A DNA stretch of 64,000 nucleotides from Owenia fusiformis (Eukaryota; Annelida; Polychaeta; Sabellida; Oweniidae). Shown here piece after piece: positions 1,423-47,736 of the stretch; the stretch's first letter is position 1; each line of letters begins with the position of its first letter. Below the pieces are notes generated by a model, which saw only the letters and a list, made by a program, of their open reading frames with translations, ran no database searches and had not been told where the DNA came from. A program made the translations under genes and the position numbers. The stretch spans positions 32,940,109 to 33,004,108 of the forward strand of contig CAIIXF020000002.1 in NCBI GenBank assembly GCA_903813345.2. Direction: 5' to 3'.

Positions 1423-1555
1423 GAGAAAAGTGCTTCAAATCTCCGGAGGAATTGACGAGCCAGGAACCATAAGGTGGGACCTAGCCCTTTGCCTACTTCT
1501 GGCCTGGATCGTAATATACTTCTGCATTTGGAAGGGGATAAAATCGTCGGGAAAG
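1423..1555 (+). CDS. Gene A exon a1 (end of EL2, TM4)
   Basis: The acceptor is the AG at 1421-1422. The first base completes a split Glu codon, so the joined protein reads [13 protein letters not shown], the conserved entry into TM4. It runs through [19 protein letters not shown] to IKSSGK. The donor is gtgatc at 1556. The 133 bp length equals gene B coding exon 4, which supports both boundaries. Confidence 0.9.
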
Positions 1556-4500
1556 GTGATCATCATTGGCAATGTTTGACGGCCTACCACCAGGGGGCTC
1601 TGGTTTCAACCAAGTCTCGGTGGTTCGGTCTTCTCGTATTTGCCCATATTTTGTATTAAACCCTACTAGTTTTCTATTGTAGATTGTAAAAGCAATGATA
1701 TTCATTGCTCATTATAAAGGCCTCATGCATTTATGCATGCTTGAATATTCAAGCCCATGATTCATTTTTGATCCTACGACAGTTTGTTTTATACCCAACA
1801 AACCCTCAGGTGGTGGTTCCATAGTGCAGGGCCATGGGAATTGCCATTAGGGCCAGGAATGTGTATAAAGTGCCTAATTCACGTATAGAACTGTTGTATA
1901 CTCAAACATCTGAGTTACAATGACTCTATATGCGAATTAGAGCCACATGGTGTAACCACACATTGAAATGAATTTTTAAGTCATGTCATACTTTTTTTTA
2001 CTAAAAATTGCCATTTTCACTAAAAAATGGTGGGCTTCATTCATGGAAAATGCTATACAATTAAGAAAGCCTAACTTAGATATTCCTCAGTTCCTATTTC
2101 TACAAAATTCAATTTTTAGAGCATGACTATGAGGACATTTTATGTGAGTTCCCGATTCCTGGCAATAATGATATATCCCATTGTCACGTACTATTTCCCA
2201 CCGAAGGATTAGTTATGTATATAAAGTTACTAACCCTTTTGAAGCCGATTGTATGATTTAAATTGGTCTTTTGCAGCCTTATGTAATTAAAAATATAAAT
2301 CCAATTCAGATTTTACTCATTAACTAACGTGTGTAAAGATTTTTAAATTTGACCCCCTTGAACATTATGTAATGTATGTATTTTAAAGAAAGGCCATGCA
2401 TGATCGATACTATTTTAGAATTTTTTTTATTTTCTTAATTTTCGTGTATGTGTGAGTGTAAAGATTACTTACAGTTAAAAAAGAAAGTTTCTTGATTTAC
2501 ATATAATTTTCAAAGTATTTATTTCACTTTTAATTTAATGGAAACCTCTATTCATCTGACATTTAAAAAAATAAACTGTAAATTTCAAATACTAAATAAG
2601 TATTAATTTAACATGGCCTAGTTAAACATATGTAGTAGAAAATCTTATTCAACAGCAGTTTTGTTATATTTGTGTGATAATTTTGCAGGTTATGTATGTT
2701 ACTGCCACGAGCCCTTACATCATAATGACGATCCTGCTCATTCGTGGAATGACACTAGATGGCGCTTTGGATGGTGTCAAATTCTACCTGATTCCAGATT
2801 TCTCCAAATTGCTAAATATGGAGGTAAGAAAATCGTTTCGATGAAACTTTTTTAATAGATCACCTGTATGACATCATCATGTTGTCATGGTTATGTTGGC
2901 ATCATTCCTTCGGGAGTGATGTCATTATCATTATGTGTGTTTTATTTGAGTTTTTCAGGCCTGCAAATCCAAGTACAGACTTGGTGAGTTGTTTTTGTGA
3001 CTGTTACCTTGGTAACTAAGTCAGCCATTTTGTTGATGTCCTTATAAGGATCAGATGTCTTTACACATTAGCTTGATAAGATTGATAATTCAAGAAAGAA
3101 GTTTTCAGGAATTAAAATTTTTCTATCTGCTTATAAATATATATTTGCCATTGATTGTGAATCAAAGCCTTGTTTTTGGGTACATCATCTTACATTTGAT
3201 TTTATCTCACGAAAGGTCCTGTTTTGCAAAAATAAAAATTGAAGTATTCTAATTAATGACTTATTCAAATATAGCTGGAAGCCACGTGAAGTAAAACGAA
3301 GATAAAGTGTCGATTAATAGCGAAAATCTCAATTAGTTGTGTTGGCCGAATTAGAATCGTTTGATTAATTCAGGATAAAATTTGAAAAACTGAGTCATAG
3401 AAAAATGAGTAACACACAATATACGAGATTATGTGCTTACAGTTGAACAAGGCTTTGTAATGAAGAATCTAGGATCAATAATACAAAAAATTATTATGAT
3501 GTAGTTTTGTATCCAATGTCATTCTAACTTTAAAGGGCAATATCAGAACAATGCAGATCTGTAGGGAAACATTTTCGATGGGGTATTGTTAATTGCGAAA
3601 AAGAAAAGTTGATTAAAATCAACTTGATAATTTATGGATGAAAAGTTAGAAAATTTTGTATATGTGAATTAGGACTTTAAATTTGACGTGATCTTGATTT
3701 GATATTGTCCTATATCTATTATTAAAAAAGTAAGAATTTGTCATTGGTACTCAGGGCTGAAGTTATTCACCCTTTTTATTGGTCCAAGAAATTAGCCAAT
3801 ACATGTATTGCAATTCTTCATCTCATGGTATCATATTCAGTTTCATATCAAATTATAAAAATCTGTGTCATTGTGTTTTTGATATTCTAAAATCACTTTA
3901 AAGGGTGAAAAATTGCGAATTACACCATTGTTCATTTTTATGGAAGAAAATTAAAAAATTCTTTAAATTTGAAACTATAAGATCTAATTACACCTTATGG
4001 TAAATTTTCTCATTTCACTTCCATGAATATGATCAGTGTTTCCAAAATATAATACTGGATTTTAGGAAAATAGAAATTGTTTTTGTAACTTGTATATGCT
4101 CACAGAAGTCCTGCTTGCCTTGGCAGAGAATAAGGATATATCAATACTTCTCTGTCAATGTTTAATTAGAATTGCTTGATTACATTTCCCAGTTGTAGTA
4201 TAGAGGTAAATATTTGAGTGGAATATAATAATGTTATAATCATCAATATTTCAGATCAAATGTTCAATCAAATTTTCCCAGGGAGAATTATATTTATAAT
4301 CATAGGTATGCAGAAAGTTGAGGTTATAAGGATGAAGTGAAATCTTTGGTCCTTATAGCTAGAAAAGTTCAAGTATGAGAAATCAGTTTAAAGTGTTAAT
4401 TTACAATATGAAAACATTCATAGATTTGGATTGATTTCGACTTTTCAGAAATTGAATTTGTGAAATTTGAGAAAAACCATATCTAAATTAATTAGAAACT

Positions 4501-13500: not shown

Positions 13501-16491
13501 CATAAACGGACGGTGAAAATGTTTCTATTATCTAATATTTGCTCTTGGGGACTTATCAGCCCCGGGGACTTAACAAGAATTTTTTGTTTGAAATAAAACA
13601 AAACGGAGACGCAAAATTTTGAAAGAAAATGTGTTTTCATCAGTATTTAGACAGTTGGTTTATTTCACCGGAGATGGAGCAGCTTTTAATTAAGTTGGAA
13701 AATAATTGATATTTCTTTTTTTGCATAATGTCATGATGCTCCGGGGTCTTCCCATGATTACACAATCCCATCCCGTGTCTAAGGTTGCCAAACTTGGAGA
13801 GAAGTGTAACTTTATTATTTTTTATCTACTGGTCATATTAATTGAATATATTTTTCTGGTTATTGCAATGAATTTTTCCACAAATATCTTTTGGGGGAAA
13901 TCAAGACCGGGGGTACATGAAATCTTTCAAGTATTCCCAAGATTAATTTTTTAAAACCTACATCACACCTGCATCATTGTCTTTGCTTCAAATCGGTTAA
14001 ATATTGACATCGTACATCTAAAGTGTACTCCGGTATATTTTGTCACTGTACCTTGTCGATCGTTAGGCGTGTATATGGAGCAGAAAGAAGGAGTTTAGTT
14101 TGGCCAACATCTCCAATTTATACTGTGTTATGATCTATAGAATTATTGAGACTCTTGTCTTAAAGTTGATATTCACTTTTCACATATTCTAAATTTAAGA
14201 TATCTGTATTTGCAGTTCGTTGGTGTAGAAGGTTTCGTGACAGCTGTGACTGATATCTTCCCCTGGTTGAAGAAAGGATATCACAGGGAGATGTTTATAG
14301 CTGTCGTGTGTGCCTTCTCCTTCTTTGTCGGCCTATCCATGGTCACCAACGTAAGTAGTTTTATCATCTATGGTCACCATTGTATGTGGCTTTGCCTAAT
14401 ATATGGTCACCAATGTAAGTAGTTTTATCATCTATGGTCACCATTGTATATGGCTTTGACTATGGACACCAACATAATAAACTAGAAATATTTACGACGA
14501 TATCATTTTTAAAGTAATTCAAAAATTTGAAATCTGTCATCGTGAAGTTGTCCTTGTAGGAACATTTCATGACCACTGATGTCATTATGTCAGTATGCTG
14601 TGACGTCAGGTGTGATATCATGCCTTGTTACATGATGTCAGTATGGATACATACATACTTGCCAATTAGCTAGATTACTATTTCTACTTCAGTACCATCT
14701 GGGGATGTTCAAAATGTTTTGATAATGTTTTTTCAGGGAGGCATGTACGTGTTCCAGATCTTTGACTACTACTCTGGCAGTAGAATCATTCTCCTTGTTG
14801 CTCTGTTTGAGGTCATAGCTGTTGCTTATATCTATGGTATGTACATGTATATAAAATATGTGTAGAATTCATTTAGATGTGATAAGATTTCCACATCTTA
14901 TAATTAATCATGGTTATCCAAGTTCATGTAAAATTGTTGCTATTAAATAAGAACCTATAATTACACATTTAACCTCCCCAATGATGCATTCAGCCACAGC
15001 AAATGCATTCTATTTTAGGAAAATGGGGTCGGTAGTAATTCAATACTAAGTGTAGTTCATCTATCAGTGATTTAGTGATTTCAAATGATATATATTTTAT
15101 TTAAAGGAGGCAACCGTTTCTATGACAACATTGAGATGATGTACGGATTCAAGATCAACCCTTACATGAAAATTTGTTGGTACTTTGTCACACCTATCTT
15201 CACTATTGTAAGTACTCTATATGGTTTTTCAATGTGATATCTATTACCTTGAATTTCAACATATCCTCTGATTGTTATTGCTGATTTAATGGCTTGGTAC
15301 TATGATCTCAATGATCAAAAATGCAGCTTTTGTGGCCTAATATGTGAATTTAGATATGTATGTAATGTTGGCTACTAGGGCTTTATTGTGTTTTTGTAAG
15401 ATTCTCCGACTTCATATTCTGATGGGATAAACCTCTTACAAAAATGGCTCTACCTTTAAGAATTTTTACAGAAAATATGTAATAAAATTTGTGCATTTTT
15501 CCAAAATATATTTCCAAATTATGGACATCAAACATTGTATATTAAGACTAGAAATATTCAAGAGGTTAGAGAGTAGACAATGCTCAGCGAAGGGTAAACC
15601 AATATGACAATGAAATTCATATTTTCAGGGAATGTTTGTTATGAATGCCGTGAGTTACTCAGAGCTGACTTATAACCGTACCTATGAGTATCCTCAATGG
15701 GCTATAAACTTTGGGTGGACTCTCGCTTGCACCAGTGTTGTTATGATCCCGATAATCTCCATACTGAAGATAGCCCAGACCAAGGGAACAATCAAAGAGG
15801 TGAGAGTTTGAACTTTTTTTCTTTTTTTTAATTGCTATTTTTTGTCTTGTGATAATGGGCATGTCTGGCTCTGTCTGAGTGGGCATTTAGGGGGTCGGGG
15901 GGGCATCACATGAATCATCAAAATTCTTGGGACACTGCTTACCTGTTGAACTTTATATTACAGATGAGATCAAGCAAACTAGTGCCAAGATCTGATTAGG
16001 TTTCGGATATTCTGGGTAGATAAAAATGATTGAAATGCGATGTTTGTCGCTGTGTGTCTTGTGTTATAGTTTCTTAGGGTCTAATTCTAATTCAGATGAC
16101 CTTCATATTGATTCTTTGATTCAGCAAATTGACTAATTGTGGAAATTAATAAGTTGTTAAATCTTTTGAATGAATAAAATGAACTTTGGCAATTCATGAT
16201 TATTAATGAATGTTTGTAATGGAAATAAAAAGTGAATTTATAATATTTCTAATGTTTCAGCGCTTGCAGTATTTGATCAAACCTCAGTTGCATCCCCACC
16301 AGTTGAGGCCTAATGATGACCCCAGTGACCTCCTGAGTGATTATGATGCTGACCTTGAAGAAGTCAAGGTGCCCCTAAATGGAGAGGTCAAGATGCCCTT
16401 GGATGACACAACAGAGGTAGCAGTTGCCACAATTACACAGAACGGCGCTTGCTGTATAGCTGAACCCAATAAGACTGAATCTCAGATTTGA
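1423..16491 (+). CDS. Gene A: SLC6 Na+/Cl- dependent transporter (GABA/taurine/creatine-like), 5' partial, 10 exons
   Basis: Spliced CDS: 1423-1555, 2689-2823, 7293-7396, 7911-8035, 8677-8789, 14216-14350, 14737-14836, 15107-15207, 15629-15799, 16261-16491. All introns are GT-AG and phases agree, giving 448 residues to a TGA. The protein covers SLC6 TM4-TM12 and the C-tail; TM1-TM3 and most of extracellular loop 2 must lie upstream of position 1. Family motifs seen: [12 protein letters not shown] (TM6, chloride-site Gln and Ser), ANSGTS (TM7, chloride-site Asn and Ser), [12 protein letters not shown] (TM8, sodium site; identical to my memory of vertebrate creatine transporter here), [14 protein letters not shown] (TM10 with gate Asp). 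SLC6 proteins are plasma-membrane symporters that import small osmolytes or transmitters using Na+ and Cl-. The tail ends ESQI, a class I PDZ-ligand pattern. Gene B, 12.7 kb downstream in the same orientation, is its paralog. The substrate is not determined; the family call is secure. Confidence 0.93.
2689..2823 (+). CDS. Gene A exon a2 (TM5)
   Basis: The acceptor is ttttgcag and the donor gtaagaa. The 135 bp encode [20 protein letters not shown] followed by the loop to LLNME. It is the counterpart of gene B coding exon 5, whose start is trapped in an 18-copy array; here the junction is single-copy, so it is the natural reference for the unexpanded state. Confidence 0.92.
2824..7292 (+). other. 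Gene A intron between exons a2 and a3
   Basis: 4.5 kb of AT-rich sequence. I see no exon-like family match on either strand, and the open frames here are short and low-complexity. No strong repeat array was recognised. Confidence 0.7.
7293..7396 (+). CDS. Gene A exon a3 (TM6)
   Basis: 104 bp encoding [18 protein letters not shown] to HHNSW plus a split Arg codon. The Gln and Ser of QIFFS match the chloride-binding pair of TM6 in Cl- dependent SLC6 members. Acceptor tttag, donor gtaatt. Same size and phase as gene B coding exon 6. Confidence 0.93.
7911..8035 (+). CDS. Gene A exon a4 (TM7)
   Basis: 125 bp encoding [17 protein letters not shown] and [19 protein letters not shown], ending in a split Gly codon. 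Asn and Ser of ANSGTS are the TM7 Na1/chloride-site residues. Acceptor tgctttttag, donor gtaag. Gene B coding exon 7 matches in length and phase. Confidence 0.93.
8164..8196. repeat. Short GC-rich inverted repeat
   Basis: gagcgggcagatat and atatctgcccgct flank a 3-nt centre. An additional gcgggcagatatagc lies upstream near 8134. This local GC-richer block continues into the small open frame at 8256. Confidence 0.7.
8256..8525 (+). CDS. Unrecognised 89-codon ORF inside gene A intron (doubtful gene)
   Basis: An open frame starts [20 protein letters not shown] and contains charged, non-repetitive sequence ([12 protein letters not shown]) unlike the surrounding AT-rich intron. Its last third runs into the perfect hairpin at 8467-8528, and it has no recognised domain or signal. 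It lies just after the GCGGGCAGATAT inverted repeat, so it may be the leading end of a mobile element rather than a host gene. Low confidence that it is expressed. Confidence 0.2.
   Translation: MEKNANNRDLFDALEKGRAVCPVNNQIFEQENPATDKDKRLDMRYFKIIPRLVATIEQCYWYGINRSSYSRFRILGLSLGQYNIIIPIS
8466..8529. repeat. Perfect 21-bp stem hairpin in gene A intron
   Basis: GGTTCAGGATATTGGGATTA at 8467 is the exact reverse complement of the sequence ending at 8528, with a 20-nt loop at 8488-8507. It sits in the intron between exons a4 and a5. It may be a tiny MITE remnant or a structured intronic RNA; nothing decides between these. Confidence 0.8.
8677..8789 (+). CDS. Gene A exon a5 (EL4 to TM8)
   Basis: 113 bp encoding [20 protein letters not shown] then [16 protein letters not shown]. 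The Asp-Ser of LDSQ contribute to the Na2 site in the family. Acceptor ttccag, donor gtgag. Matches gene B coding exon 8. Confidence 0.93.
10135..10320. mobile_element. Possible pogo-type MITE, degenerate
   Basis: Sequence rich in 'tagtgaacacct' ending acacaggttcaactgca, resembling the cagtgaaacctg-type ends seen at 28.1, 35.9 and 63 kb. The ends are diverged and the left boundary is uncertain. Confidence 0.35.
10574..10826. mobile_element. Foldback/MITE, about 250 bp
   Basis: The arm at 10574 (gagccagaggttctatactc, continuing through aaggcaaacatcattgaaac) is mirrored by the arm ending at 10826 (gtatagaacctctggctc). The arms extend inward to an almost complete palindrome containing gaattc. 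No coding capacity, consistent with a non-autonomous element. Confidence 0.75.
11211..11332. repeat. 19-20 bp tandem repeat, about 6 copies
   Basis: The unit gcagtcaatgtggtaattt is repeated with single-base variation (cagtcaat/caatcaat). It lies in the gene A intron and has no relation to an exon boundary. Confidence 0.9.
11946..12106. mobile_element. MITE with CAGGCCC...GGGCCTG ends
   Basis: The left end caggcccagagccag pairs with the right end ctggctaagggcctg. The interior has ccaagggggttcacatttg and a C-run. A second member in opposite internal orientation lies at 47737-47938. No coding capacity. Confidence 0.7.
14216..14350 (+). CDS. Gene A exon a6 (end TM8, TM9)
   Basis: 135 bp encoding [18 protein letters not shown] to [10 protein letters not shown]. 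Donor gtaagtag at 14351. A 5.4 kb intron precedes it. The exon end and donor are repeated 64 bp downstream (see the duplication entry), so a second good donor at 14415 is available; using it would shift the frame. Confidence 0.92.
14341..14465 (+). repeat. Tandem duplication of exon a6 end plus 5' splice site
   Basis: The segment around atggtcaccaacgtaagtag recurs 64 bp downstream as atggtcaccaatgtaagtag, followed by a shared tail (ttttatcatctatggtcacc). This leaves donors at 14351 and 14415, and a third decayed trace (atggacaccaacataa) near 14461. The extra 64 bp is not a multiple of three. Confidence 0.85.
14737..14836 (+). CDS. Gene A exon a7 (TM10)
   Basis: 100 bp encoding [20 protein letters not shown] to AVAYIYG, with the last Gly codon split. 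Asp of FDYY is the extracellular-gate aspartate. The usual SASG after DYY is SGSR here. The following 270 bp intron is absent from gene B. Confidence 0.9.
15107..15207 (+). CDS. Gene A exon a8 (IL5, start TM11)
   Basis: 101 bp encoding [20 protein letters not shown] then [13 protein letters not shown]. The acceptor ttaaag is weak, but the reading frame and family alignment ([10 protein letters not shown]) fix it. Donor gtaagt. In gene B this exon is fused to the previous one. Confidence 0.9.
15629..15799 (+). CDS. Gene A exon a9 (TM11-TM12)
   Basis: 171 bp encoding [20 protein letters not shown] then [20 protein letters not shown] and a cytoplasmic start to GTIKE. Acceptor attttcag, donor gtgagag. 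Six bases shorter than gene B coding exon 11. Confidence 0.92.
16261..16491 (+). CDS. Gene A terminal exon a10 (cytoplasmic C-tail)
   Basis: Acceptor taatgtttcag-type at 16260. It encodes [17 protein letters not shown], a motif also found in gene B's second terminal exon ([11 protein letters not shown]), then an acidic tail ending TESQI and TGA. The last three residues SQI fit a class I PDZ ligand. A second terminal exon like gene B's first one was not seen in gene A. Confidence 0.92.
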   Translation, partial: RLQYLIKPQLHPHQLRPNDDPSDLLSDYDADLEEVKVPLNGEVKMPLDDTTEVAVATITQNGACCIAEPNKTESQI

Positions 16492-18990
16492 CCTCAGGTT
16501 TAGGTCGAACATAGTTGATATTTTTGTAAATATTGTATAATAACATACAATGGAGGCGAAATCAGTCATTGGAGTATGAGCAAGCATTTTGCGCACATGT
16601 AGCCATCCATATAAGGGCACAACCCACGAGATCCCCAGCTAGCCAATCAGGAGCAAGATTACAGTCATGTGATGTTTAGGCACCATTTAAAGTGTTGCAT
16701 GAGAGCCCTCAACACTGGGAGGTATCATGAATTTGCCATGCAGTATTATCACAGGGGATGGGATTTTGGCATAATACTTCATCCTGGGAGTATGTATTTT
16801 TGAAATGCTTGTTCCCAGTAAGAGGAAATTCTGCCTATATTTGACCAGCTATTATTGCTTCCAGGGTGGGAAAATTGACTCACCAGGTTGCTCTTTGGAA
16901 GGGAATTTCAACAGCCCAATTTTTAGTTCGTCAAATCCCCGTCCCTTTTTTGATTTGTCAAAATCCTGTCCCTTTCCATGAGAGGGCGTCTCAAGCAAAC
17001 ATTTGGATGGTGCATTCTGGGAACAACTAGATTTAGTGTCATTTGCATATTGTAAATTCAGACCAATCATGATTCCCTAAAATGTCATGTGACTGATCAA
17101 GTATATACTGAGCTAGCTTAATGGATGGGAAACTAAATTTAATAGCTGGGAAGCTTAACCGGCAACACAGAGTAAAAAAAACACACTTAAACATGAGGTG
17201 TACATTAACTTCTAAAGTCCAAATTGTTATTTCCATTTGGGATATGTAACTATTTTTCCTGTTTTATTTTTTTTCATTTTTGACACGATTTTATATTATG
17301 AAAAAATGAACTGAGGTATATGTTATTTTGTAATGGCAACTTCCAGACTTCTTTGTCAATGTAGTTTTTTAAAATACCCCCATATATATCCCAACAAGTA
17401 ATTTGGTAATTTTGAAAATTTTTAAAGTTCAAAAAATCCTTTATCAGTAAACATTTTATTCAATGATACAATGTCTAAGAATCATAAAGATAATGATAGT
17501 AAATTTAATTTTCTATTTATTGTACATAGATTATTTATGGATAGAGTAAATGTAACAAATTTCTTGAATGAGATTGGGATTTTCGAGCATCTGTGATATA
17601 TTAAAGATGTGACCGAGTGGATTACAAATCAAAAAAAGCAATCGGGAATAAAATGTATTAGGCATGAAATGAATACTCTTAAGTTGAACAGAAAAGTCAG
17701 AAAATCAGGCGCTGAGATATTCGTCAAGCCAGAAAAAAATCATCAAGGCTGAAATATTCGTCAAGGCTGAAATGGCCTTGATGATTGTGCATTCAAGACC
17801 AAGTGTTCAAGCATTTAACAAGATTATTAAGGGAAATGCTCAAAGACGTATCAAGCTCATGTTACACCATAGCATTAGATGATATGTTAACAGAAAATGT
17901 AAAAAGTGTAAATATGATAAATGTCAGTGTAAATAGTCAGCATGATTTGTTTCAAGTGTAAAGGTAACTTCTCAATTTAGATTTATTGCCATGGTAACAA
18001 ATGTGCTACTTTTCATAACAGTTTCACTTCAATTTAGAAGGATCTTGCAGATTGTGATATCTTTTGAAAAAAGCAAATTTTGAGAATGAATATTTAATTC
18101 ACATGTTTTGAGAAGTTCCCTTAACATGTTTTATAAATTGTATGTGATCATGGGGACTCATTCAAAGCCCATGATGTGATCTACAATTGTTTTCAGTTTT
18201 GTACGATGGGTCTTCTTGTATATTTACTTTGAAAACAGCATACAGCAGATTTGTAGTGGTTTTAAACCAGTCTCATGCACATCTCCAGAACAGCTCATAT
18301 TGAGCCTAAGCTTTATTTGTATGATAGTGCGTCTAGTTCCTTATTGAAATGTTTAGTGGAATTTTGCATGAGACTGTAAACATATTTAAAACTTCATAGA
18401 AATCCACGCATAGATCTCAATGTTGACTATAAAGCAACATGTTGTGCGATCATCTTGTATTTTGGTCGAAATTTATGGAGATTTTGATCTTAAAATGTAA
18501 TTATTATTATAAAGCTAAATCATGTAAGTACTAAGTAAGATATGAGAATCATGAAGAAATGAAATATGTTTTGTAAATTGTTAGAGATTAAACTAATACA
18601 ATAATGTAATAGTGAAAACTGAATTTCCTAGGAAGTTTTAGTCATTTTTACTGCATAAACTGTAATCTGGTGGATAATGTCAATGAAGCAAAATTCCATT
18701 TAATTCCCACCAAATGATCTAAATCACATCTATAAAGGTACATATATAACCTTGTATCAGTCTTGAACAAGTCCAATCATGATTTCAGATTTCAAAGTTG
18801 TATTTTCTTAACATATAAATATGAATTTACAAAGCATACTTAATTAATTAAGAAATATAGTTAAGAAAGGGTCCATTTATAGTGTACAGTTACATGAACT
18901 GACACACGACTGGAAACACTCAGATTTGTTATTGAAGTGCACACTGCACAAATTCTGGTTATTCTATATGTAAATTCACTATGATTAATT

Positions 18991-29139: not shown

Positions 29140-29349
29140 GTCAAATCACCATGTCTGCCAGTAAGGCTGTAGAGGCTGGGGATATGGAAGAGCCTGTCCA
29201 GGAGGAACTAACAACTGCTGACGGGAAGAAGATCCAGGCCAGAGAACAGTGGACACGCCCAATCGATTTCGTGCTTGCATGTATTGGATTCTCTGTCGGT
29301 CTTGGAAATGTCTGGAGATTCCCATACCTGTGCTACAAAAATGGAGGAG
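29140..29349 (+). CDS. Gene B coding exon 1 (N-tail, TM1)
   Basis: The acceptor ttttgttttcctag ends at 29139 and the ATG is at 29151 in a good context (atcaccATGt). The tail [15 protein letters not shown] is followed by [10 protein letters not shown] and TM1, up to CYKNGG with a split Gly. Donor gtgagg. An in-frame ATG at 29106 lies before the acceptor, so 29151 is preferred. Confidence 0.9.
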
Positions 29350-32300
29350 GTGAGGCATTATGAGATATGAATTAATTCTTATCATTCTACTTTAGAATAT
29401 ACCTGTCTAAGTGGAACATATTTGGACGGTACATCTAAAAAGTGCTTCTAAATAGTGTTCCACTTGGGAGGTGTTCCACTTCAAGAGGTTCAATTTTCAT
29501 TAAGTCAATTGTTCTTGGGACTCTGAAAAGTGTTCCACTAACAGAGGTGCTCCACTTTTAGGGTGTCCCACTTTACAGCTTTCAATGTAAGTGTTGCCTG
29601 CTAACATGGCTAAAGAGTGTCCCAACAAATGGGTTATTGAAAACGGACTATGGGTTTTTAATCCATTGAAATGGTTGAGATATAGGTTCATCTATCTGTG
29701 AATTCTGCTGTATCTCCTTATCTTGCAAATACTAGTATTATTTTTCTTATTTGAAAATGAGCCCATAAATTCTGACTTTAATCCACCTGAATCCACATTC
29801 TGAAATACAGTAACATGGACCAGAGTATATTTGCATTGTATCTGGGGTATTTAACTTTGGAGTTGCTAAAATCCAAATTAAATACTGAAATGTTTTCAAA
29901 TGTTTACAAATCTAATTGTGTTTGCTTGGAGAAATGGCTTTTAGGGGATATAATATATATACAGCCTAGATGGTCAAAAGTCAAATATAATTAGAACACC
30001 AACTTGGGCTATTGTAGAAGATAGAACTGAATCTAGAAATCTAGAAATCTAGAAAATACAGGTTTCTTCAGAAATCCTACTTCAGAATTTTTGAAGAAAC
30101 TCTTATTTTCTAGTACTTACACATGAAATAATATTGAAGTTGAGGATCTAAATGACCCCAAAATGTCCTTTCATGAGAGTTTCATTATTAAATGAATGCC
30201 AGTATGTACTTATAAAATCATAAAATTCAGTGAATACAATATTGATTATACAGTAGGTAGCTGGATTTCTATCTACCATATTGGAATTTAGGGTGGTCTG
30301 TTGAATTTCTATGTTGTCTTTGAATAAAATTCTGCAACAAATACATGGTGTAGTTAAGTTACCTGTCAAGCCTAAAATTCTTAGAATGTGGATTTAGATA
30401 CAAATACATACATTTTGCATTGCATTCCAATACCAAAAATGATGTACACTTTGCTACCTCAGTTTGAAGCAACTACCATAGTCAGGTTTGTGACTCAGGC
30501 TATAGTTGAATCAGACTGATTGTATATGTATAGCATGTACAGGTATTCATCAGGTATTCATCATGCAAAACAGCTGAGATAAATATTAATGAATCAAATC
30601 TAAATTACAGATTCCAACTCGTTAACATTATCGCTGAATAATTCAGCTTTAGCACCTCTGTTGTGTGCATACAAGTTTGATTTGGAAATTCTTCAAGTTT
30701 TAAACAGTAACATCCTGCTCATGTAGGACTGCATGTAAAATGTAAGAAGTTTAACTGAAATAAAATAAATAATACAAAAATAAATTAACAACATCTTTTA
30801 TATAACTCTAATTCATTTACTTCAGAAAATGTGATTTGTTTTCAATGTTTCATACTTCATGTATATTAATGTACTACAAGAGAGACGAATCAACACAGAA
30901 ACATATTTTATGTTATTTCGTAAAATCAAGACTAACATCCAATACTGGTGATTTGGTGATGTATTGACAACCATTTGAAATACAGAAAGTCCCCTTTCGT
31001 GACCTAGTCTGTAATTGTGAAAAGTGAGGATTGCTTAACCTTTGAAGGGGGTGTATAAATGTACTTCCACTTTTTAAATGAACACATCCATTCTTCATAC
31101 TAAAACAGTTTTCTTTATAACATTATGTTGATTTGTACCATAAAAGCAAATACCAAATATACATATTACTTATATCAAATACACACTTGAAAAGAAAGCT
31201 CCAATTTTGGTTGGTAAACATGTCTTAAAGAAAGAAAAATGTTCTTAGAGTCACAGAGTGTATATTGGGATAAATGTGGGAAGCAATGTGTTTTTTACAA
31301 TAAGCTTTGAAATCAGAGGATTACCCTAAAAAAGGTCAGAACTAAATGGACTTTTTAGAAAACAGCCATGCCATATGAAATGATGAGAACAAAAATAATT
31401 ATTGTAGTAGAATGTGATATTTTCCTAAACTTAATCTCAGTTTGCCTCTTTCCCTTAATAGATCCTTTAAATAACCAACCATTAAAGAACTATTGGATTG
31501 TGGATTAGTCCTGTGTTAATTCTAGTGCTGCTAACATAGATTCACTTTAAAGATTACATCAATAGCAAACATTTCAAATCAGGAACAATTAACGTCAAGT
31601 TTTTCTGACATTATGCTGCTGATTATCATTACAATTTTTTGGTGGTGAAAATCATCAAAAGAAGCACCTCAAATCTATGAGGTTTTTCTATGACAAACAT
31701 TTCTATCCCATTTAATCCCACACAGTTTTACTTGTAAATATGAGGTTCACCGTCTTCAATTCAGATCAGGGATTCCCAGGGGACTTTAAGAATATGGATG
31801 CAACATCATAGATTTGCAATGAGGCTTTAAGAAGCAGGATCTAGCCCCGCTTTGAAGTAGATGTTTTATGTTAAAATCTTCAATTCACACTCATTAATGC
31901 CCACTTGTTATCAACATTTATGCCTAGTCTTCATCTTTATGTCGCAATATAAATGTAGTTCTTGTAAATAGACTTGACATAATTTCAATTTGTTAAAATT
32001 TGAAATATACCAAACCTATAATATATTTGAATGAACTTTAACTAACATCAATGTATAACTGGATAACATGAACCTAAACTTGCAAATATCAGTAGGATGT
32101 ACTGTACTTTGACTTGACTTAATTGTTACATGTTTCCCAGTGGAGATTTTGTTCCCCAATCTTAATCTTTAACTATTAATGATTCAAATAAAATACATTA
32201 ATTTTGTGTCCGGGAAGGATGTATATATCTTTTAAGCACAATATTTTTTGTTTTCTGTGAGACATTTTGAAATAATATTTTTGTGGTTTGGTCTTTAAAT

Positions 32301-35300
32301 TGTTATACTGAAAATCAGAATGGTGACGTAGATGTCAGCGTGTCAGTGTAGGATGCAGTGACATTAAAGTGTTATACATTACATATTCTAATTAAATAGG
32401 ATATACTGTATATGTACGTCATATGTGCCATATCTGATCACTAGACAATTCACCATAAAATCATTCTGATATCCATCGCGTCATCTTTCCATCTCACTGG
32501 CTGAGAAGAATTGGTTCATCATGTGCTATAAACATGTAAACTCAATGCCTTTTCACAAAGTTGAATCATTACCCTCTTCAAAAAACTTCACTATAGAGTT
32601 AAGATTGTTGACTACTTTGTGTTTTTGTTTTGATTTATCCGCTATGACAACGCGTACAGTAACATCAATTTAAGATTCATTTTTTAATTAAATTTGATTT
32701 GAAAAGAAAAGTTATTATTCAACATACGAGAATGACATAACTTCTGTTTTGTCTATATTTTCATTTTCAAATACAGCAAGAGATGCATTTTATGTGAAAA
32801 TGACTACTTGTAATGCTTATCAGATACATTCATTGCTACCACTATTTCATGACATTTTATGACAACTTTATTGGCTATAAAACTTGTGTCAAGTGAAAAT
32901 CAAATTGAAGTTTAGATATTCTCAAAATTAATTTAGGTTTATGTACATATTTATGAAACAAAGGAGCAATAAAATTATAAACATCTCCGTATTTTGCAAT
33001 CTACATGTAGGTGCATTATACACAATAGTCTAAAACATGTTGCTTTTTCCTTAGAGATTTTTTTAAATTGTCCTATTTTAGTATTTGTTATCAAATATGC
33101 TACTATAGTGTATTATATAATTGTAGAGTAACTGTATTATGGTAAAATATAAACTCCTTATTTAAAATCCCTGTGATACCAAGACCTGTCAACTTATATT
33201 TGTATATATGGATACAGACACATAATTATCCCATCGAACAAAGTTCGGAGGGATATAGGGAACGCCTCCGTCCGTCCGTACGTACGTCCGTACGAACGTC
33301 CGTACGTACATCCGTACGTACATCCGTCTGTCCGTCCGTCCGTCCGTCCAGGCAATAACTCAAATACCGTTGGCCCGATTTTATTCATATTTTGTACACA
33401 TATACCCTATGGGGGTAGAAGTTCTGCTCGAAAGCTGATTTTCAAAATGGCCGCTCATTTAAAAATGGCGGCCATTTTAGTGCCGATTTTACAGTAATTT
33501 AGGTGCAATATGTCAAACTGTAATAGCAATATGTTTTAAATGTAAAAAAAATTATATAGGACATTAATAAACCTAGAAATGTAGATATTAAAAAAGCACA
33601 TGGCAGCCATCTTGAAAAATGGCGGCCTTTACTCGTTATATTACGATTTTTGCTGTAACTCGAAAAGTAGTGGAGCGATTTTGTTCATATTTGGTATGTG
33701 AATACTATAAGCATGGCACACTGTCTCATGACACTTTTGGTAGAAGGCGGCCATTTTGAAAAATGGTGGACATTTTGAAAAATGGCCGCCATTTTAACTT
33801 ATTTTACTATAACTCTAAAAGTAGTGGAATGATTTTGTTCATATTTGGTATGTGAATACGTATAAGCATGGCACACTGTCTAATGACACTTTTGGTAGAA
33901 GGCGGTCATTTTTCAAAATGGCCGCCATTTTAATGTATTTTACTATAACTCGAAAAGAAGTGGAGCGATTTTGTTCATATTCGGTATGTGAATACTGTAA
34001 GCATGGCACACTGTCTAATGACACTTTTGGTAGGAGGCAGCCATTCTGAAAAATGGCGGACATTTGAAAAATGGCTGCCATTTTAACTTATTTTACTATA
34101 ACTCGTAAAGTAGTGGAGCGATTTTGTTCATATTTGGTATGTGAATACGTATAAGCATGGCACACTGTCTAATGACACTTTTAGTAGAAGGCAGCCATTT
34201 TTCAAAATGGCCGCCATTTTTATGTATTTTACTATAACTCTAAAAGTAGTGGAGCGATTTTGTTCATATTTGGTATGTGAATACTATAAGCATGGCACAC
34301 TGTCTAATGAGACTTTTGGTAGAAGGCGGCCATTTTTCAAAATGGCCACCATTTTAACGTTTTTTACTATAACTCGAAAAGTAGTAGAGCGATTTTGTTC
34401 ATATTTGGTATGTGAATATTATAAGCATGGCACACTGTCTAATGACACTTTTGGTAGAAGGTGCCCGTTTTGAAAAATGTTCGATGGGATTCGCTACGCT
34501 TTGGCGTTGCTGTTGTTCTGGTTCTAAATGTGCATATATGATTTCTATTCAAGAATCTACACATAATGTATAAATGCATTTGTATATTAGCAAACATATA
34601 TTCCGATATAAAAATGCACACATGTATCTCTTTTTTTCAGGAGCCTTTTTGATTCCCTATGGCATTTGCCTAGTAATAGGAGGAGTGCCCCTGTTCTATT
34701 TGGAGGTTGCCCTTGGGCAGTTTATGCAGGCAGCTGGAACCAAAACATGGGAGATTGCACCCTTGTTTAAAGGTAAGAAAACATGGGAGATTGCACCATT
34801 GTTTAAAGGTAGGAAAACATGGGAGATTGCACCCTTGTTTACGGAAAGAAAACGTGGGAGATTGCACCATTGTTAAAGGTAAGAAAACGTGGGAGATTGC
34901 ACCATTGTTAAAGGTAAGTATAAAACATGGGAGATAGCACCATTGTTAAAGGTAAGAAAATGTGGGAGATTGCACCATTGTTAAAGGTAAGAAAATGTGG
35001 GAGATTGCACCATTGTTAAAGGTAAGAAAATGTGGGAGATTGCACCATTGTTAAAGGTAAGAAAAGGTGGGAGATTGCACCATTGTTAAAGGTAAGAAAA
35101 CGTGGGAGATTGCACCATTGTTTAAAGGTAAGAAAACATGCAAGATTGCACTCTTGTTTAAAGATAAGAAAACATGGGGGATTGCACCATTGTTTAAAGG
35201 TAAGAAAACATGCAAGATTGCACTCTTGTTTAAAGATAAGAAAACATGGGAGATTGCATCCTTGTTTAAAGGTAAGAAAACAAGGGAGATTGCACCCTTG

Positions 35301-38300
35301 TTTAAAGGTAAGAAAACGTGGGAGATTGCACCATTGTTTAAAGGTAAGAAAACATGCAAGATTGCACTCTTGTTTAAAGATAAGAAAACATGGGAGATTG
35401 CACCCTTGTTTAAAGGTAAGAAAACAAGGGAGATTGCACCTTTGTTTAAAGATAATAAAACGTGCAAGATAGCACATTTGTTCAAAACATTTGAGACTAC
35501 TTTACTAAGAACTAATTATTTGAGAATCTAAGTTCAGTAATACTTGATAAGGACCAGGGTCGTCTATATTTCAGTCAGAAGACTAATGACAAAACTCTTG
35601 TTTTTTCAGGTATTGGTATTGCAACAACGATCATTATATTCTTTCTCAATTGCTACTACAACATCATCCTCACCTGGGCTTTCTACTACGTGTTTGCGTC
35701 ATTCACAGCTGTCCTACCCTGGTCTAACTGCGATAATGAATGGAACACTGAAGCCTGTACTCTAGATTTTAACATCACAAGGCTGAATTCCACTGGGAAT
35801 TTCACATATAATGGCACCCTATTGGACCCAGTTACAGAATTCTGGGAGTAAGTATTCACCCTGATCTGCTTGTAACACTATACAGTAAAACCTGCCTTAA
35901 GTGGAACACCTTTGGTATCTCTAAAATGTGTTCCACCTGGGAGGTGAATCGAGGTTTATTTAACATTAAGTCAGCTGGTCTTGGGACTCTGAAAAGTGTT
36001 CCACTTAACAGAGGTTTTCCACTTCTAGAGGTGTTCCACTTTACAAGTTCCACTATACTCTGATTATTTCGGTTGATTTACATTTTGTTTTAATGTTGAT
36101 AGATCTTAATAATCTCTAATGCAGTTGCCTTAGTATGTAATTTGATGTTGAATGTGAAATTAATGTAAGCTACTAATGATTGTTATCTCAGATATTAAGA
36201 ACTGCTAAAGTAAACTACTTCCAAGGGCATATTAAAAACATTCTCTCATAAAGTTGTGACTTCCTTTGAGATTGACTCAGGGATGTTAAAAAGATAAATG
36301 AATGGCAACATTGGAAAATACAAAAAGTTAATTTAAGGTACTCAGTTTAGAGAGTCATTCAGATATACAAGTTTCACTCTATTTATATTTTCAGAAACAA
36401 AGTACTTGCTATCTCTTCTGGTATAACTGATGTTGGTACAGTCAAGTGGGATCTTGCCCTCACAATGGTGTTTGCCTGGTTGGTCATCTTCGCTTGCATT
36501 AGCAAAGGCATCAAGTCTTCTGGCAAAGTAAGTACATGTAACTTCCAGAATTTTTTTTAAATGTATATTTTTATTACGTATTTATTTCATATATACATAA
36601 TGGTAAATAATTATTAATGATTCTGTTTATTAGTGTCCATTGTCACAAACTGTATTTATTTTTATTTTAGATGTTTTGAATGCATGCTGGATCCATTATC
36701 ACTTAATATTTTTAGGTCATGTACGTCACAGCTACTTCCCCATATATCTTCATGTCGATTCTTTACATTTCCAGGTCATGTACGTCACGGCTACTTCCCC
36801 ATATATCTTCATGTCGATTCTTTACATTTCCAGGTCATGTACGTCACGGCTACTTCCCCATATATCTTCGCTACTTCCCCATATATCTTCATGTCGATTC
36901 TTTACATTTCCAGGTCATGTACGTCACGGCTACTTCCCCATATATCTTCATGTCGATTCTTTACATTTCCAGGTCATGTACGTCACGGCTACTTCCCCAT
37001 ATATCTTCATGTCGATTCTTTACATTTCCAGGTCATGTACGTCACGGCTACTTCCCCATATATCTTCATGTCGATTCTTTACATTTCCAGGTCATGTACG
37101 TCACGGCTACTTTCCCATATATCTTCATGTCGATTCTTTACATTTCCAGGTCATGTACGTCACGGCTACTTCCCCATATATCTTCATGTCGATTCTTTAC
37201 ATTTCCAGGTCATGTACGTCACGGCTACTTCCCCATATATCTTCATGTCGATTCTTTACATTTCCAGGTCATGTACATCACGGCTACTTCCCCATATATC
37301 TTCATGTCGATTCTTTACATTTCCAGGTCATGTACGTCACGGCTACTTCCCCATATATCTTCATGTCGATTCTTTACATTTCCAGGTCATGTACGTCACG
37401 GCTACTTCCCCATATATCTTCATGTCGATTCTTTACATTTCCAGGTCATGTACGTCACGGCTACTTCCCCATATATCTTCATGTCGATTCTTTACATTTC
37501 CAGGTCATGTACGTCACGGCTACTTCCCCATATATCTTCATGTCGATTCTTTACATTTCCAGGTCATGTACGTCACGGCTACTTCCCCATATATCTTCAT
37601 GTCGATTCTTTACATTTCCAGGTCATGTACGTCACGGCTACTTCCCCATATATCTTCATGTCGATTCTTTACATTTCCAGGTCATGTACGTCACGGCTAC
37701 TTCCCCATATATCTTCATGTTGATTCTTTACATTTCCAGGTCATGTACGTCACGGCTACTTCCCCATATATCTTCATGTTGATTCTTTACATTTCCAGGT
37801 CATGTACGTCACGGCTACTTCCCCATATATTTTCATGTTGATTCTGCTGATAAGAGGAGCTCTGCTACCTGGGGCTGTTGAGGGTCTGAAATTCTACTTC
37901 ATCCCAAATTTTGACCGGCTCCTAGACATGCAGGTGAGAGTTGCATTCCGTTGAGTTGATAACGTTTTCAATGGTGTATCACTTGTATCCCATTTTGTAA
38001 CACTTGTATTCCATTGTGTTACCCTTGTATTATATTGTGCTCCATTATGTCACAGTATATTCCCTTGTGTCACACTTTTTAATTATGTCACACTATATTC
38101 ACCTGTGTCACACAATATTCTATTATATCACAACATATCCACTATATTTCATTATATCACAATATATTCCCTAATGTCACACCTTATTCCATTGTGTCAT
38201 ACTATATTCCATTGTATTACATACCTAGCGAAGCATTTGTATGGAAGTCAATGGAGCTGAAGGTCGGCTATATATTCCTGTATAGCCGCCAAACTTTTTT

Positions 38301-41300
38301 ACCATGACAACTTTGTGACGTCATAACATGTAAACAAAGTGATTTCGACTGGAATCTTGTAAAATTTTGGTCTTTTTTCATGTATTTCAACATATAATCT
38401 TTGTGAAATGTTATGTAAATGTACTTTAGGTATGTAATACAACAATTATGTCCGTATCATTGAATATATGCCTTCGGTCCGTCGTCAATATATCCTTCGC
38501 AAGCTCAGGCTATATTGACGTCCAACCTCAGGCATATATTCAATGATAGGGACATAATGGCTAAATGTCACAATATATTCCATTTTGTCACATTCTGTTT
38601 CATTATATCACCATTGTGTCACACTATATTCTATTATATTATAATATGTTCCACTGTGTCACACTATATTCCATCATATCACAATATATTCCACTGTGTC
38701 ACACTATATTCTCTTATATTACAATATATTCCATTGTGTCACACTATGTTTTATTGCATTACATAGGTGTGGGTGGATGCAGGATCTCAGATCTTCTTCT
38801 CCATGTCAATCTCTTTAGGAACACTGACTGCTCTTGGAAGTTTCAACAAATTCCATCACAACTCATACAGGTAAACCATTTATATCACACATAGCCCAAC
38901 TAAGCGAAGCACCTCTTACTTGTAAAATATAACTCATACAGGTAAACCATTTATATCACACATAGCCCAACAGCTCATACAGGTAAACCATTTATATCAC
39001 ACATAGCCCAACTAAGCGAAGCACCTCTTACTTGTAAAATATGTCACCCATCAGCCCATTATTGAAAATCCAGAAAACTATGTATTTAATAAACCTTGTA
39101 CTTTAATTTAATTAACTTAATTTCATGAGTTCTTGGTTAACTAATAGCAAAGTCTGTTAAAAAAGATGTAGAAATTTTTTGAGCTCTTGTGAACATATCT
39201 CAAAGGTGACCCATTATTTTAATATCTTCCTTAAAGAGTGCAAGATGTATGAGGGCTGTTCATATATTTAGCTCACCCTGTACACATTGCCTTCAATATA
39301 TGAAAATCTCACATACATTCTTAACATGCAAATGAGAAAATTTGCTTTATTAGAATTTATTGAATGACCCTTACCTTACCTTTTCAGGGACACTATCATA
39401 TTTGCTTGTGCTAACAGTGGGACGAGTATATTTGCTGGCACTGTTATCTTCATGGTGTTGGGATTTATGGCTCAAGAACAAGGAGTATCAGTGGATGAGG
39501 TCGCTGCCTCTGGTAAGATTCTACAAAATGTCTTATCACACAGAGGAGGCAATATCCCAGAATTCCTAGATTTACCCATCTCACACAGAAGAGGCAATAT
39601 CCCAGAATTCCTAAATTAAACCATTATTAATTAACTCACACAGAGGGGGAAATAACCCAGAATTCGAAGATGATATCTCTTAGTAAAGATGAACCTTTAG
39701 AGGTTATTGTTATATGGAGATGGGTTCATTTATTATTTCTGGGGCAATCTCCCTCTTTCAAAGGATCCTAATCATGTTAGAACTTCCTGGGGTCATTTAT
39801 TTTGAAAATACTGTTCATATTCTTTTTAAATAAAGAAACCATTTAGCTTTAGATGGAATGAATAAGTAAACTTCACAGTTAAAAAATAGAGCCAAAATAT
39901 CAAATTCAGTTTAAATCAATTATTAAGATAAAGATAGCTGATGTACATGTGCGTGTAAGTGCTGAAAATATTAGGGGAAATCCAATTCCTTGAATTGTTC
40001 TTAAATGAGCAGTGCTTTTATTGAAGATGACATGTTGATATGATAACCACCCAATTGCATATTGTACTTACTATAAGATGTTCTTTAATTTATCACAGGT
40101 CCGGGACTTGCATTCATTGCTTATCCCAAAGCTCTGGCTCAGATGCCTGTGGCTCCACTGTGGTCTGTCTTCTTCTTCATTATGGTCATATTGCTGGGGC
40201 TTGACAGTCAGGTAACTATAGCAATGTTTTATGTTTCCATAGTAACAAATAACAGTGTATATAACCATATAAAAATGTTTATTAGGCAGGCAAAGCAGCT
40301 ACGTGTATATCTCCAAATTAGCAAAACTACTATTAATTTAGAAAATGTGAAATAGTCTTATGATAGTTCATGTATTTTGTCGCCTTTAACTCAAATTAGG
40401 TGCACCAATTTAAATTTTCCCCACCATTTGATATATCCCGATTTTCACCTCCATTTTTATGACAGATCCTGATGAAACTGTTACTAATTATCGTTTACCA
40501 TGATAAGTACACAAAATTCTATGAATACTCATTAGTAAAAAAGAATTTTCATAAACTTACCACTAATAAATCAATAATAGATCATTAAGTTTGTAATTAT
40601 AAATTGTACTTGTGTTTTCCGCTTCAGTTTGTCGGAGTTGAGGGTTTTGTGACAGCTATTGTTGATGCCTTTCCCCAATATCTGCGTGTAGGTCATCGTA
40701 AGATCTTCTTCATAGCATTTGCATGCTGCATCAAACTGCTGGTTGGACTCTCCATGATCACAAATGTAAGTTTAACATGCGAGGGTGCATTGCCATGTCC
40801 TATCCCTGGCACATTTAAAAATTTAGTTTCATAATTTAATTTTTTTTGCACTTTCCCCAATGATTCTTCTTTACTTAGTTTTTCATTTTTCAATTTTTTG
40901 TCCAAGAGTTCTACATTTTGCCATTTTTGCCAATTTACGTTTTGACTTTTGCCATTGAAACTAACTTGTGTATCAGAGGCAGGAATGCTACAAATGCTCA
41001 TCAACACATCATATACATGTATAGGTATCAATTTGGAGAAGACATGACAATTGAAATCCATCAATTATATAATCTTAAATCATTTTTCTTCCAGGGTGGA
41101 ATGTATGTGTTCCAACTGTTTGACTACTACTCTGGGGGTCGTATCATCCTCCTCATTGGCTTCATAGAGTGTGCTGTTGTCTCCTGGGTCTATGGCGCAT
41201 CCCGTTTCCAGGACAATATTCAGATGATGTTGGGTTTCAGAATCAACCCTTTCATGAAGTTTATGTGGTGTTCCCTCTCACCCTTGTTTTGCATTGTGAG

Positions 41301-44300
41301 TTGTTAAAATTTTAAAAAGGGAATTCACTTTTTATGAAATAAAGTAATAATTTTCTGAAAAAATATGTTCAACACTATGCTATTAGCATTGCAAAACTGT
41401 GAATACTTGCCTCATTCTTATCATCTAGTGTATTATCATTTGCTTCGGCTCTTGCTCTGTATGTAACATGGTTTTGATTAATATGATAAAAAAAACCTTT
41501 AAACCTAAATCTGCTGTTTCTTTGACATGTTTTACATGAGAGTGTATGCTTGTCTTCCAGGTGATATTCATCATGAGTATGGTCAGCTACTCTGAGTTGT
41601 CCTATGAGAGACCTACTGTGACTTACCAGTACCCCCAGTGGGCTGTGGGCGTTGGCTGGACAATGGCATTCTTCTCTATCATCTGGATCCCCATCTACAT
41701 GATATACAGTATCATCATGAACACTAACTTCATCCAGGTTTGTGTTATTTATGTTTATGGGTTGGAGGGGGACTGATGCATATGGATATATTTAGGTATA
41801 GGGGGGGGGGGGGTAAGGTCTGAGGGATGAAGTCTGGGGTGATATTTGGGGGTGAGGTATGTTTAGATGAGATCTTGGGGGTAGGGTGGCAGGGTCTAAG
41901 GGAGGTATCTGGGTGAAATATAATTGATGCATGCTTGTAGGGAAAGTACCTATACACTTAAATGTGGAGGATTGCATTTCATGTATTTTACATGTTAGAG
42001 GCACAGATTAACATGTTTGAAGTACACATTTTAACATGTTTTAGGATATCTAACATGTTTATGGACACCATTTAACATGTTCTAGGATATTTAACATGTT
42101 TAAGGATACAGATTAACATGTTTGAAGTACACATTTTAACATGTTTTAGGATATCTAACATGTTTATGGACACCGTTTAACATGTTCTAGGATATTAAAC
42201 ATGTTTTAGGATGCAGATTAACATGTTTGAAGGACACAGTTTAACATGTTTTCGAATATTTAACATGTTTAAGAACACCGTTTATATAACATGTTCTAGG
42301 ATATTTAACATGTTTTTGGATAAATATTCACATATTTGAAGGACACAGTTCAACATGTTTCAGGATAAATATTAACATGTTTGAAGGACACAGTTTAACA
42401 TGTTTTATGATAAATATTAACATGTTTGAAAGACGCTGTTCAACATGTTTTATGATAAATATTAACATGTTTGAAGGACACAGTTCAACATGTTTTATGA
42501 TAAATATTAACATGTTCGAAGGACACAATTTAACATGTTTAGGATTCAGATTTACATGTTTGAAAGACGCTGTTCAACATGTTTTATGATAAATATTAAC
42601 ATGTTCGAAGGACACAGTTTAACATGTTTGGGATACAGATTAACATGTTTGAAGGATCCAACCTCATATTCTAAGGATGCAGTCACTAACATGATTTTAG
42701 GGGATTCAAATTAACACATAACAAATGTGGCAAATTGCACAGTTAACCAACCATGACACCTAACAGCATGGAAGATAAACCATAACATTGGTAAGTTTTA
42801 CGTTTAATGTTTGTTCATTTGATGGAATTAAAGGGACAAAAAGTTTATTTATTGGAACCTTTTCTTTATTGTTTGCCCATTTGATGGGATTAAAGGGCTG
42901 GAGAATCTAAAATGTTGGAACCTATCTTTCATAAAAGTGTGCCAATAATTCCCCAACAATCATAATTTTATTTTAATGTAAAAATGATCTTTACGGATCA
43001 AATAAGAAGTTATTGATGATATAAGATACCGAAATGTCCAAATTCATTAACATGTTTGTTTGTTTTTATTTTTTATTCATAGTGGCAATCATACAAAATA
43101 AAGTCATACAAAATGAAATGTTTATGTCAAACACCCCAGCAGAAATGTCCAAATTCATTAACATGAAAAGCTGGCATTCCCTTTTTCATTTTCTGTCAGA
43201 TTACCATAAAAACTGAGGGATTTTCCAGAGGTAGAGTCAATTGTTTGAGTTTTAAAGAAAATAGCCATGACATTGAATGATTGGGAGCCAAAACCATTTT
43301 GAAACCAACTCTGAACCTGTCTCTATCCACTCTGGTCCCTTTAATTATCATTAATCACTGTTAACTTATTATAAAGTAGATGTATGTTGCACATCTGGGT
43401 TCTTTCCCTTTGTAAATGTCATTCTGCACAATTAATTCAGTTAGTAAGCATGAGGGATTGGTGCTTTCACAATTTCCTAAACTAACAAAGGATTGGACAC
43501 AACTTCATTTAAGTTTTAGAGTAGAGGTGTAGCATATATCCTTGAATTTATGATACCTCCGAAGCCCTGATATATTATATAGAACACCCTCACCCCCACC
43601 CCCTAAAGAGATGACAAAAAATATGTTCGACCAAGTGGCATTTTCTTATGAACATGGGTGGGACTATATTGTGTTTGTAATGTACCACATAACTAAATTT
43701 CAGTCATGTGCAATTGTGCATGTATATTCAGCACATTGCCTTATGTTATTTTCTCTCATTGGTAACAGATAATATGATTATTTTATACAACCATGGGCTT
43801 GCTTGAAAGCCCATGATACAACATGACCAGAATGTGATAAAAACTAGTCTTGACATTAAATATAAAAAAACACTCTTTTTTATTTTTCAGCTAGTGCAAA
43901 CTCCAAGAAAGACATTCTGGCGTCTTGTTGAGCCAAATTTGCGGACATACCAACTCCGAAAAGTTGACTACCCCAATGTGCCTGATGATGTTGTGTACAC
44001 GCTCCCTCCCTCCGAGGGTAGCTCATTGTATGATAACCCTGCATATGATGGCCCTACTTTCGTATACTACGAGACTGCGATATGACCAAGTTCTATGTCA
44101 TGAAGAATGGCCTTTACAAAAGGGGATTCCCTATATGGAATTCCCCTCAGGAAGGAATTCCCAAGGAAAGTCTTCAGAAGAAGTAGAAATTCCTGCGAGG
44201 CTTCACAATACAAATTGTGAATGCATGCGTTCTACACAGGTGCAGATTCCCAAAATGCTGTATGGAGAAAGAATACCTCAAGGCTCAGACTGTGAATTCC

Positions 44301-47132: not shown

Positions 47133-47420
47133 AAATTCAAATAGGTGAGGAAAATTTAAATTGGTGAGGCAAAACTAAATAGGTGAGGCAAATTTAAATA
47201 GGGAAAGTAAAACTAAATAGGTGAGGCAAATTTAAATAGGGGAGGCAAAACTAAATAGGTGAGGCAAATTTAAATAGGGGAGGCAAAACTAAATAGGTGA
47301 GGCAAATTTAAATAGGGGAGGCACAACTAAATAGGTGAGGCAAATTTAAATAGGGGAGGCACAACTAAATAGGGGAGGCAAAAATAAATAGGGGAGGCAA
47401 AACTCAATTGGTCAGGCAAA
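47133..47420. repeat. 38 bp minisatellite, about 7 copies
   Basis: Alternating aggcaaatttaaatagggg and aggcaaaactaaataggtg half-units make a 38 bp period. The copies are close to identical. Confidence 0.92.
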
Positions 47421-47736
47421 TGTTCACTTGAAAGCCCATACATGGGCAGAGCCAACAATGAGGCACCAACATTTTACAGTAAATAGACATTTTTCAATTG
47501 AAACCATGAAAATGCAATCTTAAAAATGATGGATAGTCATTAAAGGCTATGGCCCACAATATTAAGACTAATGTATTGCAACAACACCTCAGTTTATGAT
47601 TCTAGTTTATTTCATTATGATTCTGTACATATACTTACAAATAAGTATACATATATAATTAATGATTTCCAGCTGATGTGCACTATGACTGCACTAGACT
47701 AACCACTAGCCATAATTTTCAGCCGATTACACTAGA

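Follow-up and report, generated by a model that had tools for sequence, protein, structure and literature searches.

An array of 18 acceptor-bearing units in front of coding exon 5 of an SLC6 transporter gene of Owenia fusiformis, a boundary minisatellite of the lancelet 'mirage' kind

How can the right acceptor be chosen when the end of an intron and the start of the following exon lie in 18 tandem copies in front of that exon? The question is raised by an SLC6 gene in the window analysed here, a stretch of 64 000 nucleotides of Owenia fusiformis DNA with a G+C content of 33.1%. The parts of the locus concerned are the following (here and below a slash marks a splice-site or unit boundary).

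29151..44085, plus strand: the focal SLC6 gene from start codon to stop, with 12 coding exons and 629 amino acids
36395..36527, plus strand: coding exon 4, with the donor AAA/gtaagt
36698..36715, plus strand: acceptor 1, the non-array sequence before unit 1, ATCACTTAATATTTTTAG
36716..37798, plus strand: the exon 5 acceptor array of 18 units, defined by TRF, by pattern count and by comparison of the units with the exon
37740..37798, plus strand: unit 18, the last of the array, with TTCAT (A at -23) and TTGAT (A at -17)
37799..37933, plus strand: coding exon 5, 135 nt, phase 0, directly after the array and open from acceptor 19 only

The acceptor and the start of exon 5 have indeed become a minisatellite immediately before the exon at 37799, as the earlier note on this DNA had proposed. 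Its count of 18 units also holds, but the length of 59 bp that it gave for all of them applies to 17; in unit 3 a duplication of 21 bp within the unit (TRF row 36849-36890) brings the length to 80 bp. A 59-bp unit is made up of 47 nt from the start of exon 5 followed by a 12-nt acceptor tract, TTACATTTCCAG, a division that follows from the comparison with exon 5, to which the unit is alike over 47 nt except at positions 33 and 41 before the two diverge. The sequence AGGTCATGTAC has 19 plus-strand matches in the whole window, every one of them at the array or the exon, and 18 near-perfect copies by chance are impossible. The consensus sequence is found in 12 of the 17 units of 59 bp, and units 1, 7 and 10 each carry one private substitution; this near-identity implies a recent expansion, as was originally supposed, and suggests that the array may be unstable in length between haplotypes and in the soma. 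Where units 1-16 read TCG, the last two units, 17 and 18, read TTG as exon 5 does, so that the units at the edges of the array differ from its homogenised middle; the authentic boundary stays at the exon. The consensus unit contains a single, terminal AG (unit 1 has a second one from its private A), no AG has been lost across the 18 units, and every unit-unit boundary reads AG/GT. The acceptor before unit 1, which had been taken for a unit acceptor, is a different sequence, ATCACTTAATATTTTTAG, and is probably the ancestral acceptor of intron 4. Homology between it and the unit acceptor was considered and set aside: 10 of their last 14 nt are alike, a level that is equalled or exceeded by 4 of the window's 19 other acceptors. 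The 32-mer of the unit is absent from viral_contigs and genome_contigs, both of which by design contain no animal genomes. The predicted RNA fold of the array amounts to -162 kcal/mol over 1083 nt, a value to be read without a shuffled control.

With acceptor 19 and the first of the exon 2 donors, the 12 exons can be joined across GT-AG introns into one intact reading frame of 629 aa. The focal protein matches Pfam SNF with an E value of 4.9e-209, and this full SNF domain, together with the intact frame, bears out the SLC6 assignment. Its best solved relative in the PDB is the taurine transporter (E 2.7e-156 for the first 439 of 629 aa, the part that was searched), to which exon 5, which we take to be the TM5 region of the transporter, aligns without gaps. 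All 11 introns are at least 265 nt long and the coding exons span 104-238 nt. Two candidate last coding exons, 43891-44085 and 45306-45488, both continue the frame of exon 11. A second SLC6 gene lies on the same strand of the window, forming a tandem pair with the focal gene.

1423-16492, plus strand: the SLC6 paralog, 10 exons found, frame open to the stop
2689..2823, plus strand: the paralog counterpart of exon 5, array-free, used for comparison
15107-15207, plus strand: a paralog exon that gives an open frame

The first exons of the paralog presumably lie outside the window. It has an additional intron, 14837-15106, within the counterpart of focal exon 10, and over the five exons compared dN is 0.20, dS not being computable.

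What happens when the spliceosome enters the array too early can be read from the frames. Acceptors 1-18 all lead to a TGA, at 37721 (unit 17), 37780 (unit 18) or 37839 (exon) depending on the register of entry, in agreement with the claim that upstream entry meets a stop; the reading-frame check likewise leaves the 19th acceptor as the sole open entry and the only source of the full protein, as claimed. The unit of the TCG type is stop-free in all frames and the TTG variant carries one stop, so that the TTGs of units 17, 18 and the exon provide one stop for each entry register and, since the TCG units are open, entry at a decoy ends in a stop for any number of middle units. An open unit is in itself unremarkable, as 6.2% of mononucleotide shuffles of the unit are also stop-free. 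The array frame was also considered as Deltaretro_Tax (Pfam 2.3e-07, 31.7 bits for a cut-off of 25) and as two weaker families; no single stretch passes, and we take the match to be a sum over repeats.

We may then wonder whether anything in the vicinity of acceptor 19 sets it apart. With a matrix built from the annotated acceptors of the window, 37799 being left out, the 19 exon 5 acceptors score 9.49-9.52, a level reached by 1.4-1.5% of plus-strand AGs; because these scores are the same, the local signal cannot separate them. Each unit carries, beside its acceptor, the yUnAy-like TTCAT pointed out in the earlier note (A at -23 listed for unit acceptors 2, 18 and 19, the sequence being the same in the remaining 59-bp units). 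AG scanning from a branch point, which the note regarded as the deciding step, therefore does not decide: in every unit such a motif precedes the unit's AG by 23 nt, and the choice is rather which pair of branch site and 3' splice site is recognised. Of the 20 annotated acceptors, 14 have a yUnAy motif 15-45 nt upstream; that acceptor 1 lacks one is thus of little significance. TTGAT (A at -17), restricted among the 18 units to units 17 and 18, was considered as a stronger branch signal that could flag where the array ends; it is common to acceptors 18 and 19, yet acceptor 18 leads to a stop. These two acceptors are spaced 59 nt apart with no AG between them. There is no sign of selection against decoys in the AGs of the units (18/18 kept) or in the unit donors of the exon 2 array described below (15/20 kept). 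A purine-rich AAGAGGAG at 37852, immediately after the stretch of exon 5 that was copied, is missing from the array. It could act as an enhancer, but a comparable run occurs in 6 of 21 exons, and we regard it as a lead only.

Repeats spanning a splice junction, which do not figure in the finding of the earlier note, are found at three other places in the window.

34641..34772, plus strand: coding exon 2, from the gene model
34742..35486, plus strand: the exon 2 donor minisatellite, about 20 copies of a 36-bp unit, from TRF, pattern and BLAST
38862..39022, plus strand: the triplicated exon 6 donor, with donors 38871, 38942 and 38983
14339..14462, plus strand: the donor of paralog exon 14216-14350, duplicated once over 64 bp, from TRF and BLAST

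The exon 2 array is the mirror image of the exon 5 acceptor array in the same gene. Its unit consists of the final 31 nt of exon 2 plus gtaag, and its copies number 17 by BLAST or 20 units by pattern, including the real one. A donor is kept in 15 of the 20 units (15 intact GGTA(A/G)G sites, the real one counted) and three of the five losses belong to one copied subtype; with TRF matches of 89%, it is more diverged than the exon 5 array. Only the real donor and one located 36 nt further, which adds 12 codons, are in frame and open. Read-through of the exon 6 donor meets an immediate stop at 38872, and one of its three donors keeps the frame open. There are 18 extra copies at the exon 5 acceptor, two at the exon 6 donor and one at the paralog donor.

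The frequency of such events was assessed with 80-bp BLAST queries (plus strand, E up to 1e-3) from both ends of 21 exons: four of 42 junctions (22 acceptors and 20 donors) in the two paralogous genes have nearby junction-spanning copies. Of the 42 exon ends queried first, 39 were splice junctions, and three junctions were added afterwards. BLAST found no nearby copies at the junctions of paralog exon 15107-15207 or at the acceptor of the alternative last exon. For three of the four repeats the counterpart junctions of the paralog lie in the window and show no junction-spanning copies (that of exon 2 lies outside), so that at least three of the four arose separately. Four junctions of 42 do not exceed what the local minisatellite density predicts; in the two SLC6 genes, 17% of the intron sequence and 3% of the exon sequence lie in TRF arrays. 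An enrichment of arrays at junctions was also considered and not retained, with three of 39 junctions inside TRF arrays against 5.0-5.8 expected at random positions in the two genes; this count required at least 5 bp on each side and left out the exon 6 donor (BLAST only) and the three later junctions. Other repeats of the window include 20/40-bp minisatellites in intron 5 (37967-38763) that reach almost to the acceptor of exon 6, an acceptor whose intronic flank resembles 38185-38223 (87% over 39 nt); tandem repeats of 135-289 bp with GGCGGCCATTTT-type motifs in intron 1 (33648-34479); and a 38-bp array at 47139-47421 with a donor-like GGTGAGG in its unit, tied to no exon.

Judging from the genomic sequence, we consider it fairly probable that the exon 5 array is a mirage-type boundary minisatellite, recently amplified, in which acceptor 19 is chosen by exon definition with a branch point in the last unit. 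The end of intron 4 and the start of exon 5 would first have been duplicated in tandem, possibly at breakpoints sharing a 2-nt CT match, which by eye would yield the observed length, and later amplified to 18 copies. All the copies of the array would be intronic in the productive transcript. The exon 5 donor (37933) would pair with the nearest acceptor, giving an exon of 135 nt as opposed to 194 to 1218 nt otherwise, and acceptor 19 splicing would work because the gene appears, from its intron and exon lengths, to be in an exon-definition regime. A single rule, the use of the site adjoining the exon body, would also pick the right donor at exons 2 and 6. As a rule, the first AG after a branch point is the one that is used. 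If this holds, the branch point of acceptor 19 must fall within 37740-37798, where 47 of the 59 nt are copied coding sequence. The upstream acceptors would probably leak, giving some nonsense transcripts.

The units with their frames and stops, the intact SLC6 frame, the three further junction-spanning repeats, the lengths of the introns and exons, the weak donor at the unit start, the spacing of acceptors 18 and 19 and the lancelet mirages argue for this reading as a whole. Against it stands the fact that the 19 acceptors score alike and that no local feature singles out the 19th. The proximity rules for competition between identical splice sites, reportedly set out by Reed and Maniatis in 1986, would favour the sites on the intron side, the wrong site in both arrays, and count against it too, as do the array-free lengths of introns 4 and 2, 188 and 123 nt. 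Introns of these lengths are short enough for intron definition.

The splicing of exon 5 might instead be largely broken by a recent deleterious or near-neutral expansion, early acceptors being used and a paralog or another allele covering the function. Equal choice among the sites would leave only about 0.2% of transcripts open (1/19 acceptors, 2/15 exon 2 donors and 1/3 exon 6 donors), the paralog upstream is open, and the expansion, with only three private substitutions among its 17 units, may be so recent that decay does not yet show. Yet none of the 12 coding exons or of their splice sites is damaged, and divergence is greater in the exon 2 donor array, so that the gene has probably lived longer with an array. 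In addition, splicing is described as undisturbed by the mirages of lancelets (PMC3087553, PMC3902484). We hold broken splicing to be rather unlikely.

That the assembler made the array or its length is, in our view, quite unlikely. Assemblies do fail at near-identical units, an error in copy number would weigh against the mirage interpretation, and one mirage is reported to look wrongly assembled in the lancelet draft genome (PMC3087553). However, units 1, 3, 7 and 10 have private differences, one base is common to units 17, 18 and the exon next to them, and the same kind of event is seen at the three other junctions of the window.

The AG/GT at every unit boundary could in principle serve as acceptor and then as donor, the units leaving in turn by recursive or nested splicing, and the frame would be regained by a second splice joining the start of a unit to acceptor 19. 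The start of a unit is nevertheless a poor donor: CAG/GTCATG scores 2.6, a value that 17% of the plus-strand GTs of the window equal or surpass, and the regenerated AAA/GTCATG scores -2.0, compared with at least 3.1 for the 19 annotated donors. Removal of the units one by one is unlikely on this ground, and we give this stepwise scheme very little credence. It is equally hard to credit that the arrays form a length-tunable rheostat, in which the nonsense fraction would depend on how many decoy acceptors stand at exon 5 and how many decoy donors at exon 2, and allelic or somatic changes in copy number would tune the dose of transporter.

The locus amounts to a natural competing-splice-site experiment in one gene, with 19 acceptors that the matrix cannot distinguish and 15 intact donors three exons upstream, where a functional protein needs the site adjoining the exon body in both arrays. 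If the transcripts are mostly correct, exon definition is strong enough to single out one of 19 acceptors, and branching takes place within copied coding sequence; if they are mostly incorrect, the locus gives the level of mis-splicing that a gene can bear while its frame stays intact.

How does the array compare with known systems? Intron gain by tandem duplication of AGGT has reportedly been proposed by Rogers in 1989 and Zhuo in 2007. The AG/GT at each unit boundary recalls this process, but GTCATG, on the GT side, makes a poor donor (judged by matrix score, it falls below the 19 annotated donors and would offer no usable site at the boundary) and the copies lengthen an existing intron, no gained intron being seen. 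Closer to our case are the 'mirages' of lancelets, which the earlier note does not mention and which were reportedly also treated by Canestro in 2002. These minisatellite-like duplications of exon-intron boundaries affect the globins Gb6 and Gb9, Adh3, troponin C and PGBD5 (PMC3087553, PMC3902484). Globin Gb6 has the 3' end of an intron and the start of an exon copied in 6 and 3 units on two haplotypes, Gb9 has a 3' boundary copy, the earlier Adh3 cases have units of 10-72 bp, and mirages are unstable in length (PMC3087553). PGBD5 is given 2 or 7 copies of 60 bp and 3 or 6 of 108 bp, by assembly, in a report that also treats troponin C (PMC3902484). RT-PCR is presented as suggesting that regular splicing is kept even though many mirage copies hold splice signals (PMC3087553), and the puzzle of splice choice raised by the earlier note, which stands, is partly answered by these lancelet data.

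Internal tandem repeats at exon-intron boundaries of human duplicated genes are linked, in one study, to novel introns and alternative splicing, the variable repeats studied having on average about 4 units of 30 bp (PMC2812944). As described there, they too are minisatellites at boundaries that alter gene structure, whereas here the full-length protein needs all the copies to lie within an existing intron. A search of the open-access literature for boundary minisatellites with tandem splice-site duplication, made with no lancelet term, returned PMC3087553 as its sole match; the name 'mirage' was combined with 'amphioxus' in a separate search, which gave two papers. The G+C content of the window lies below the roughly 41% of Branchiostoma, and the exon 5 array may be a case outside lancelets. 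The tandem units here span the boundary, on the acceptor and donor sides and in more than one gene, AG and GT are kept in many copies, the authentic boundary is kept at the exon and the edge units are unlike the homogenised middle, all as in the mirages described. On the other hand, the 18 and about 20 copies found here contrast with the 1-7 repeats of the globin and PGBD5 cases, and 18/18 intact unit AGs and two arrays plus a triplication in one SLC6 gene also set this case apart from those mirages. The exon 5 array is a new and unusually large case of the boundary minisatellite already known from lancelets.
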